A stretch of DNA of 64,000 nucleotides from Brooklawnia propionicigenes (GTDB taxonomy: Bacteria; Actinomycetota; Actinomycetes; Propionibacteriales; Propionibacteriaceae), in NCBI RefSeq assembly GCF_030297015.1, contig NZ_AP028056.1, positions 2,800,939 to 2,864,938 on the forward strand, read 5' to 3'. Both the position numbers and the translations under genes were made by a program. Position 1 is the stretch's first letter. The number at the start of each line of letters is the position of its first letter. Of the stretch, positions 24,260 to 27,882 are shown piece by piece. Under the pieces are notes generated by a model that was not told the origin of the DNA, made no database searches, and saw nothing but the letters and a program-made list of their open reading frames with translations.

Positions 24260-24418
24260 GCGACCGCACACCACCTCGGCCCTGCCTGCGGTTGGCGACA
24301 TCCGGGCGTGTCAGGAGGCTGTTCGAAGCGTTGACGAGGACGCATTGCCAGGCGCCCGGCTGTTCGCGATGCGAGACAGGTTTTGGTCGCGGTTGGTGCC
24401 CCGTGCAATCATGGCTAC

Positions 24419-24451
24419 GTGCACAACCGACAGGGTCTCGTACTTCATTAG
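24419..24451 (+). CDS. Candidate ilvB leader peptide MHNRQGLVLH
   Basis: Ten codons from GTG 24419 to TAG 24449-24451. Codons 7-9 are CTC GTA CTT (Leu-Val-Leu), products of the pathway that the downstream operon serves. The stop codon runs straight into a 12-bp hairpin and then an intrinsic terminator. AATCAT lies six bases before the GTG, so the RNA may begin at the leader start codon. I see nothing recognisable in the 24260-24405 stretch before it. Confidence 0.7.
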   Translation: MHNRQGLVLH

Positions 24452-24475
24452 CGCTTCGTCAACTGACGGAGCGCT
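24450..24475 (+). promoter_or_regulatory. ilvB leader hairpin (pause/antiterminator region)
   Basis: AGCGCTTCGTCA at 24450-24461 pairs with TGACGGAGCGCT at 24464-24475: 12 pairs with one G-U. It begins on the last two bases of the leader stop codon, the right place to sense ribosome position. Confidence 0.65.
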
Positions 24476-24511
24476 CCCTCGCCTGCCATCACGGCAGCGG
24501 GGGTTTTTTTT
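24476..24511 (+). terminator. Intrinsic terminator (attenuator) before ilvB
   Basis: GC-rich arms 24476-24487 and 24493-24503 around a five-base loop (CTGCC/GGCAG core plus an outer C/G run), followed by eight consecutive T at 24504-24511. The only long T run after a hairpin in the window, placed 37 bases before the ilvB ATG instead of after a gene. Confidence 0.85.
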
Positions 24512-24548
24512 GCACTGATCCTGCCATCACACAGAGAGGAAATCGCCG

Positions 24549-26297
24549 ATGGCCAAGCAGCCAGCCGATCTGCCGATCATGACCGGAGCACAGGCGCTCG
24601 TCACGTCATTGGAGCGTTGCGGCGTGGAAGTAGCCTTCGGCATTCCGGGCGGGGCAATCCTGCCGGCATACGATCCGCTTTTCGATTCGTCCATTCGCCA
24701 CATCCTGGTCCGCCACGAACAGGGCGCCGGGCACGCCGCCGAGGGCTACGCCGTCGCCACCGGACGGGTCGGGGTCTGTATCGCGACCTCCGGCCCGGGT
24801 GCGACCAACCTGGTCACCCCATTGGCCGATGCCAACCTGGACTCGGTGCCGATGGTCGCGATCACCGGACAGATCAATTCCGCGCTCATCGGAACCGACG
24901 GCTTCCAGGAAGCCGATATCCGCGGCATCACGATGCCGGTCACCAAGCACAACTTCCTCGTCAAGCGCACCGAGGACATTCCCGAAGCCATCAAGGCGGC
25001 CTTCCACATCGCCTCGACCGGGCGTCCGGGACCGGTGCTGGTCGACATCGCCAAGGATGCGTTGTCCGGCAGCGCACCGTTCGACTACGACGATGAGCTC
25101 CTGCTACCCGGCTACAAGCCCAACACCCAGCCGCATATCCGGCAGGTGAAGGAAGCCGCGAAGCTGATCTGCGAGTCCAAGCGTCCGGTGCTGTACATCG
25201 GCGGCGGCGTGCTCAAGGCCCGCGCCTGGCAGGAGTTGGCCGATCTGGTCGACCTGGCCGACATTCCGGTGGTCACCACCCTGATGGCCCGCGGTGCCTT
25301 TCCCGACGATCATCCGCTGCACATGGGGATGCCGGGCATGCACGGCTCGGTCTCCGCGGTCGGCGCGCTGCAGAAATCCGATCTGCTCATCGCCGTCGGA
25401 ACCCGATTCGACGATCGGGTCACCGGGCGTCTCGACTCCTTCGCACCCGACGCCAAGGTGATTCACGCCGACATCGACCCCGCAGAGATCGGTAAGAACC
25501 GCGCGGTGGACGTGCCGGTGGTCGGCGACGCCAAGGTCTTCTTGAACGGACTGATCGAGGCGTTGCGCAACGAGAAGATCCCGGACTTCCAGACCTGGTC
25601 GGGCTACCTGAAGGGGCTCAAGGAGCGGTATCCGGTGGGCTGGACCGAAAGCTCCGACGGACGCCTGACGCCGCAGCAGGTGATCAAGCGGATCGGGGAG
25701 ATCGCCGGACCCGACGCCATCTTCGCCACCGGTGTCGGCCAGCATCAGATGTGGTCGGCGCACTTCCTGCCGTTCGCCAAGCCGGGCAAGTGGCTCACCT
25801 CGGGTGGGGCGGGCACCATGGGCTACTGCGTCCCGGCCGCCATGGGCGCCAAGGTCGGAGCGCCCGACAAGGTGGTCTGGGGCATTGACGGGGACGGCTG
25901 TTTCCAGATGACCAACCAGGAACTGGTCACCTGCGCGCTGAACAACATCCCGATCAAGATCGCCATCATCAACAACAACGCGCTGGGCATGGTCCGGCAG
26001 TGGCAGACCCTGTTCTACAGCGGCCGCTACTCCAACACCGACCTGGAGACCGACACGGTGCCGAACTTCCCGTTGCTGGCCGAGGCAATGGGCTGCGTGG
26101 GCCTGCGGGCGACCAGCCCGGATGAGGTCGACGACGTGATCAACCAGGCGATGGCTATCAACGATCGTCCGGTCGTGGTCGAGTTCGTGTGCAGCAAGGA
26201 CGCGATGGTCTGGCCGATGGTTGCGGCCGGCACCAGCAATGACGACATCAAGATCGCCCGCGACATGGCGCCGGCGTGGGAGGAGGAAGTGCTGTGA
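24549..26297 (+). CDS. ilvB: Acetolactate synthase large (catalytic) subunit
   Basis: 582 residues. Thiamine-diphosphate enzyme: N-terminal Pyr domain with the catalytic Glu in [14 protein letters not shown], a central FAD-type domain ([13 protein letters not shown]) and a C-terminal PP domain with [12 protein letters not shown] near residue 447 and NN at the end of the TPP motif. It makes acetolactate or acetohydroxybutyrate, the first common step to valine, leucine and isoleucine. ATG 24549 has AGAGAGGAAA upstream. The regulatory subunit IlvN overlaps its stop. Controlled by the attenuator just upstream. Confidence 0.97.
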
Positions 26298-26818
26298 GCA
26301 ACCACACTCTGAGCGTGCTGGTCAGCGATCAGCCGGGCGTGCTGGCCCGGGTCGCGAGCCTGTTCAGCCGCCGCGGATTCAACATCGAGTCGCTGGCAGT
26401 CGGCCCGACCGAACGCGACGATCTCTCCAGGATCACGCTGGTCACCGAGGTGGACGATGTCACGATCCTCGAGCAACTGGTCAAGCAGCTCAACAAGCTG
26501 ATCGAGGTCTACAAGGTCATCGAATTGGAACCGAATTCGGTGCAGCGCCAGCTGATCCTGGTAAAGGTGCGGTGCAACGAACGCAACCGCAGTGCCGTGC
26601 TCGATGTGGTCGGGTTGTTCCGCGGCAAGGCCGTGGACGTCAGCTTCGAATCGATCACCGTCGAGGCGACCGGCAGCGACGACAAATTGGATGCGCTCAT
26701 CACGATGCTCGAACCCTATGGGATCATCGAATTGGTGAAGTCGGGTGAGGTCGCGTTGAGCCGCGGCAACAAGTCCATCAACGAAAAGAGCCGTGGTGTC
26801 CTGCGGACAGCACGCTGA
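26294..26818 (+). CDS. ilvN: Acetolactate synthase small (regulatory) subunit
   Basis: 174 residues from GTG 26294, which overlaps the ilvB stop (GTGA), so the subunits are translationally coupled. N-terminal ACT domain ([21 protein letters not shown] split here) binds valine for feedback control; the C-terminal domain activates IlvB. Length and start SNHTLSVLV fit the family. The in-frame ATG at 26276 would only add six residues inside ilvB. Confidence 0.96.

Positions 26819-26838: not shown

Positions 26839-27882
<1,044 letters not shown>

Follow-up and report, generated by a model that had tools for sequence, protein, structure and literature searches.

A predicted leader-peptide attenuator upstream of ilvBNC in Brooklawnia propionicigenes and its conservation among actinobacteria

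We consider it highly likely that the ilvBNC operon of Brooklawnia propionicigenes is controlled by a leaderless leader-peptide attenuator. Through it, the ribosome very probably senses leucine and valine. It is an ordinary member of the actinobacterial ilvB attenuators, and the same switch is known from related bacteria. The result places the ilvBNC operon of the Propionibacteriaceae under a known type of control, which is widespread in actinobacteria. For B. propionicigenes itself, we infer the sign of the response and the leaderless start. The DNA analysed here, called the window, is a stretch of 64,000 bp (bases 2800939-2864938 of the 3.21 Mb genome). The features are listed in Table 1, and all positions refer to the window.

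Table 1. Features of the putative attenuator and of the ilvBNC operon in the window
Feature	Position	Strand	Basis or details
-35-like hexamer TTGGTC	24383..24388	+	Sequence; register (-36) as for TTGA in many relatives
-10-like hexamer AATCAT	24407..24412	+	18-nt spacer to TTGGTC, 6 nt before GTG
Leader ORF MHNRQGLVLH, GTG start, TAG stop	24419..24451	+	Sequence, relatives
Control codons CTC GTA CTT (Leu Val Leu)	24437..24445	+	LVL, LVI or LVV-type runs at the same place in relatives
Hairpin P1, antiterminator-like (inferred role)	24450..24475	+	11 bp, -18.6 kcal/mol
Intrinsic terminator hairpin P2 (predicted)	24476..24503	+	11 bp, bulged C24483, -18.9 kcal/mol
U-tract, eight T	24504..24511	+	Sequence
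Shine-Dalgarno-like GAGAGGAAA ahead of ilvB	24534..24542	+	Sequence
ilvB, acetolactate synthase large subunit	24549..26297	+	NCBIfam NF005860 above cut-off
ilvN, acetolactate synthase small subunit	26294..26818	+	NCBIfam NF008864 and TIGR00119 above cut-off
ilvC, ketol-acid reductoisomerase	26854..27882	+	NCBIfam NF004017 and TIGR00465 above cut-off

The attenuator lies directly upstream of ilvB, and 37 bp separate the end of the terminator from this gene. The first-pass annotation of this DNA had placed the feature before ilvBNC, and the NCBIfam profiles confirmed the three downstream genes as ilvB, ilvN and ilvC. The gene hisF is found directly upstream of the attenuator region on the same strand. 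The probable GTG start of ilvN overlaps the TGA stop of ilvB (26294-26297), which suggests translational coupling.

The ten-codon leader frame named in the first-pass annotation is present and reads GTG CAC AAC CGA CAG GGT CTC GTA CTT CAT TAG. This short ORF with consecutive codons for branched-chain amino acids (BCAA) ends at the first hairpin, P1, with its stop codon starting 1 nt ahead of it. In P1, positions 24450-24460 pair with 24465-24475, including one G-U pair, around a 4-nt loop. A hairpin of 12 bp had been claimed at the stop codon; the hairpin stands, but it has 11 pairs, because the twelfth (24461/24464) would leave a 2-nt loop. Zero nucleotides separate P1 from P2, and P2 is followed by the U-tract, as the same annotation had said of an intrinsic terminator with eight T directly after the hairpin. 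The fold and its conservation predict an intrinsic terminator with a U-tract between the leader and ilvB. A simple terminator scan missed P2, probably because of the bulge. The fold of 24419-24515 reached -45.4 kcal/mol, whereas shuffles averaged -26.6 (z = -6.16); it also paired its first five bases with 24511-24515. The fold of P1 and P2 gave z = -6.87. None of 200 shuffles was equal in either case.

Conservation was followed in ilvB upstream regions of the Propionibacteriaceae and other actinobacteria. Of 57 related genomes, 56 gave an IlvB match; one of these was weak (E 1.2e-4), and the upstream stretches of the other 55 were taken. A leader with BCAA codons and a terminator is present in every one of them: a strict pattern recognised 49, and a general detector the remaining 6. 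Among 80 named loci, 39 pass the strict pattern and 30 more pass the general detector. A class search gave an IlvB match in 139 of 148 genomes, and 118 of 125 further loci from this search pass the general detector. Together, the strict pattern (a leader with a run of Leu, Val or Ile codons and a terminator before ilvB) holds in 88 of 135 loci. The general detector found a leader and a terminator in 154 of 172 other loci, which form the second set; 17 of the 172 had no candidate and one, at a contig end, had a weak one. The order noted in the window, which the first-pass annotation had proposed to look for in related genomes, was thus found in 242 of 260 loci.

Several choices define these counts. 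The strict pattern gave 89 matches, from which L099 was removed as a false match; 86 of the remaining 88 are distinct, as a few records occur twice. L099 is counted in the second set with another leader. Six class-search loci from genomes already used and L137 (contig end) were omitted before counting. The class search also listed partial IlvB matches in G064, G104, G135 and G140 and an additional copy in G186, all of which were left out. For four loci of family f39 with a good IlvB (L261, L265, L266, L267), the general detector found no leader candidate within 450 nt.

To examine base pairing, we aligned 26 of the 39 family leaders, hand-picked for ease of alignment. In this alignment, 97.2% of the cells pair, compared with 39-48% in slid versions. 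P1 and P2 covary: cells with both sides changed numbered 41 against 13.4 in shuffles, and in P1, 6 of the 10 pairs counted have changed on both sides. Further pair types in the same 26 sequences were not above chance (19 vs 17.2; 80 of 500 shuffles had at least as many). In a separate comparison, the bottom 7 pairs of P1 were 96% paired, compared with 21-67% when slid. From the family alignment we derived a covariance model, which recovered the leader in 55 of 57 relatives; in all 55, a match lies immediately ahead of ilvB. In the whole genome, where 150 of 2736 first-look candidates were scored, the window site was matched with E 5e-20. Among 198 genomes of the phylum, at least 16 have a match, including 4 from outside the class; the true number may be higher, since the model is family-specific and the filters are strict.

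The window leader is homologous to the leaders of its relatives, and judged from these sequences the attenuator is conserved. This bears on the reading of the region as a plain terminator after hisF with a short ORF that arose by chance, for which the position of hisF just upstream on the same strand speaks. We regard that reading as extremely improbable, given that codons, P1, P2 and promoter register are all conserved in relatives.

The peptides within the genus include MQNRQGLVLN, MHNGQGLVLN, MFSRQELVIR and MIDRQDLVIS, and more distant leaders are of the ILVL, LVVI or VVVI type. A lack of conserved leader codons, named in the first-pass annotation as grounds against its reading, was not observed: the BCAA codon runs are kept in relatives. 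In L031, L032 and L035, GTT replaces GTA, for example in CTC GTT GTT CTT ATT GTT, and the amino acids are kept. Of the 276 Val codons in seven genes of the window, 6 are GTA, and of the 265 Leu codons, 5 are CTT. In the 154 second-set leaders, the BCAA runs use GTA for 171 of 298 Val codons and CTT for 75 of 210 Leu codons; these are raw counts, and GTA had helped to choose the candidates. GTA occurs in the run of 141 of these 154 leaders, having earned a point in candidate choice. The strict pattern demanded CTN-GT[A/T], so its GTA count of 84/88 is biased. As described in PMC1183508, theory links the choice of synonymous control codons to sensitivity through selective tRNA charging.

The promoter of the window would have the layout TTGGTC-18-AATCAT-6-GTG, and AATCAT is located six bases before the leader GTG, as had been noted before. 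In 84 of the 88 strict-pattern leaders, a NANNNT motif ends 5-8 nt ahead of the start codon, which had been selected from the in-frame candidates according to how far it lies from the control codons. At 80 shifted positions, the count of this motif averaged 13.2 and peaked at 48. TTGA was counted 68 times at -35 to -37 over the 88 leaders, and the window itself has TTGG. In the second set, the corresponding count of 154/154 is circular, since the promoter earned points in candidate choice, and it was not used. The -10 hexamer of the window does not begin with the T of TANNNT, and TTGGTC makes a weak -35. A simple promoter scan of the region found no promoter, probably because these hexamers are weak. 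In S. lividans, the -10 motif TAnnnT is on average 6.3 nt from the transcription start, and ilvL is described as leaderless (PMC8079986). Because of the conserved promoter register and the leaderless ilvL of S. lividans, a leaderless leader transcript with a predicted start at 24419 is likely. The earlier suggestion that the transcript may start on the leader codon itself is thereby supported.

The spacing of the elements follows a pattern. A ribosome reaches about 12 nt ahead of the first base of its A-site codon, and in 63 of 88 leaders the distance from the first control codon to P1 is 13-14 nt. A ribosome stalled on this codon therefore just clears P1. In the 88 leaders, the position of the stop codon relative to the start of P1 ranges from 6 nt upstream to 21 nt downstream. 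A ribosome on a stop codon at or near the start of P1 covers the foot of its 5′ arm. The placement of control codons and stop codon therefore means that stalling permits P1 and that fast translation forbids it.

The gap between P1 and P2 is 0, 1 and 2 nt in 69, 11 and 8 of the 88 leaders, and at most 2 nt in 143 of 154 second-set leaders (231/242 overall). The other 11 of the 154 have gaps of 3-13 nt, and five gaps of 4 nt belong to relatives with the leader MRSILLVLVRRAD, in which the base of P2 was drawn differently than in the first set. A flush arrangement is in itself not rare. Among shuffled leaders, 49% had a hairpin at most 2 nt from P2, compared with 88/88 real leaders; when P1 also had to reach -10 kcal/mol or better, the figures were 23.5% and 87/88. 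When the window and 110 loci were scanned blind, a flush hairpin was found at 85 of 123 attenuator-like sites and at 102 of 460 other terminator-like sites.

The switch may work as follows. Transcription would start on the GTG, and the ribosome would load at the 5′-end. When Leu and Val are plentiful, the ribosome would run to the TAG at the foot of P1, cover the 5′ arm and keep P1 open. P2 would then form in the exit channel of the RNA polymerase, and transcription would end at the U-tract. When Leu or Val is scarce, the ribosome would stall at CTC-GTA-CTT, whose first codon is 13 nt before P1, and P1 would fold directly ahead of it. P1 abutting the base of P2 would hinder the completion of P2, and RNA polymerase would read into ilvB. 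P1 should antiterminate because starvation must raise expression, as reported for M. tuberculosis (PMC13236596). We tentatively propose that P1 blocks P2 sterically. Such a route would need no overlap, since the terminator hairpin must invade the RNA exit channel and a flush duplex would compete for room. Blocking the RNA exit channel prevents termination in the case of the phage protein P7, as described in PMC6624301.

The effect of stalling on folding was simulated by masking the RNA upstream of the ribosome front, with stalls at CTC, GTA and the stop codon. In the window, the mean pair probability of P2 was about 0.94 at every ribosome position tested, and in the 88 homologues the means ranged from 0.946 to 0.961 across ribosome positions. 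These values do not support the earlier claim that stalling changes folding. The attenuator had also been called complete, and this description is not supported for the window, where no helix of at least 5 pairs (3 or more G-C) was found to join the leader or P1 to the 5′ arm of P2.

These results argue against a classical 1-2-3-4 attenuator, the usual textbook design, in which stalling forms an antiterminator that shares sequence with the terminator; we consider it unlikely here. No such shared helix was found, and P2 keeps its normal register at the probability given above. The first 10 nt of the P2 5′ arm are not captured upstream in 70 of 88 homologues. Apart from a shifted register, two weak 6-pair helices touch the 3′ arm of P2. 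In favour of the classical design, antiterminator and terminator are reported to overlap at a GCC trinucleotide in C. glutamicum (PMC11857589), and some homologues lean towards it: 1-5 nt are captured in 18 of 88, and with the ribosome stalled at CTC, the probability of the bottom P2 pairs drops below 0.5 in L033, L038 and L039. In the window, a shifted P2 register pairs GCTCCC (24473-24478) with GGGGGT (24499-24504) and takes three bases of the P1 3′ arm, so a small competition at the boundary is possible, of the kind described for C. glutamicum (PMC11857589). The textbook overlapping antiterminator is absent from our search of the window, and a small boundary overlap may exist.

In the stop state, one of the 88 homologues loses P2, and at least one P2 base is caught in 64 of 88. 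With the 5′ arm of P1 masked in this state, the 3′ arm can pair weakly with the 5′ arm of P2 (-5.0 kcal/mol). This pairing was rejected as an antiterminator because it forms in the wrong state and is too weak.

The two 6-pair helices just mentioned join TCTCGT (24436-24441) and CTTCGT (24454-24459) each with GCGGGG (24497-24502). They could serve a design in which P1 is a pause hairpin that allows the ribosome to catch up, and the real antiterminator is a weak structure between the leader and the P2 3′ arm. A pause role of the first hairpin is proposed for C. glutamicum in PMC11857589. We find this design quite improbable for the window: the helices hold 3 G-C pairs against a P2 of -18.9 kcal/mol, and 24436-24441 would sit under the stalled ribosome. 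Many ilvB attenuators seem to be without an overlapping textbook antiterminator, yet they keep the order of ribosome, P1, P2 and polymerase and the spacing. The flush design without clear overlap is a point that specialists might test, and steric antitermination is directly testable.

That several actinobacteria control ilvBNC by attenuation was stated in the first-pass annotation and agrees with the literature, in which leader-peptide attenuation of ilvB genes is described for Streptomyces (PMC8079986), Corynebacterium (PMC11857589) and Mycobacterium (PMC13236596). Its assignment of leader-peptide attenuation to ilvBNC is likewise upheld by codons, P1 and P2 that are conserved in relatives. 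The matches listed in our literature search held no description of an ilvB attenuator in the Propionibacteriaceae.

The ilvL of the S. lividans ilvBHC operon resembles the window in its short leaderless peptide (MRTRILVLGKRVG and stop), hairpins and a U-rich stretch before the operon (PMC8079986). Homologues with exactly this peptide are present in the locus sets (L115, L213 and others). Unlike the window, the Streptomyces homologues L106, L115 and L130 have a stop codon inside P1, and their P1 is longer. The M. tuberculosis ilvB1 attenuator is similar in having a uORF (LVVI there), a GUA control codon and an intrinsic terminator (PMC13236596). According to the same source, its terminator and antiterminator are mutually exclusive, whereas no clear overlap was found in the window. 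Induction upon IlvB1 inhibition depends on the codons in M. tuberculosis, and changing LVVI to AAAA removes it (PMC13236596). In S. coelicolor ilvB, replacing the candidate control codons was without effect, as retold in PMC1262725. In our analysis, this result conflicts with that from M. tuberculosis and would count against codon sensing.

The ilvB-II motif and the ilvBNC attenuator of Corynebacterium share P1, P2, the U-tract, a short uORF, CUU and GUA control codons and adjacent hairpin bases with the window (PMC10272879, PMC11857589). In C. glutamicum, transcription is reported to start one nucleotide from the leader start codon (PMC10272879, PMC11857589), and terminator mutants alter expression (PMC11857589). 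As these sources describe it, the Corynebacterium uORF extends over most of P1, and terminator and antiterminator overlap there, whereas the window ORF stops at the P1 foot and no clear overlap was found. Set by eye against the ilvB-II description in PMC10272879, the window, with its 4-nt P1 loop, has neither a uORF across P1 nor a terminator arm that pairs with the P1 loop.

The covariance model, built from ilvB leaders only, also matched six places before other genes, one in this genome and one in each of five relatives. Four are located before leuS and two before citramalate synthase. Their peptides are MHPAQLLPMPRRD, MHSASLLLP, MNRALLA, MHAAGLLRR, MTRRTVIIPERV and MLHHVIIIR (GTG read as M), and the gap between P1 and P2 is 0 or 1 nt in all six. 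In this genome, the site before leuS is the one other match up to E 10, and it is weak (E 0.001). This second attenuator is outside the window (G000:C1:2796137-2796229; L269, L271). Its leader MHPAQLLPMPRRD has two CTT Leu codons, TAAACT six bases before the GTG, and flush hairpins. Leu codons before leuS are as expected of amino acid sensing. Streptomyces leuS attenuators also combine a leader with Leu codons and a terminator (PMC1262725, PMC8079986); they differ from the window in gene and codons and in an antiterminator hairpin described in PMC1262725.

The same layout with other codons before leuS and citramalate synthase speaks against control of ilvB by a ligand-binding riboswitch or a T-box, which we judge very improbable. 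ppGpp riboswitches precede some ilvB genes elsewhere (PMC10272879). In the window, the Rfam scan found two tRNAs located elsewhere; for the attenuator, no family reached the gathering score, and matches up to E 10 were far below it. The length of P1, which varies from 19 to 68 nt across the 88 leaders, also argues against an aptamer.

Tentatively, and with more doubt than confidence, we propose a single actinobacterial attenuator chassis. It would consist of a leaderless leader, control codons about 13-14 nt before P1, and a P1 flush with P2 without clear sequence overlap. P1 would antiterminate by leaving no room for P2 to close in the exit channel, not by base theft, and the same chassis, with different codons, may also serve leuS, citramalate synthase and leuA. 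A literature search reaching few subscription papers found no paper on a leader-peptide attenuator of citramalate synthase. In two relatives (L272, L276), the layout with VII or VIII codons is found before this gene.

The four matches outside the class have gaps of 0-2 nt. Three precede acetolactate synthase, two of these gene calls being made by reading the translation only, and one precedes leuA. At the leuA site (L280), the leader has three Leu codons and the hairpins are 2 nt apart.
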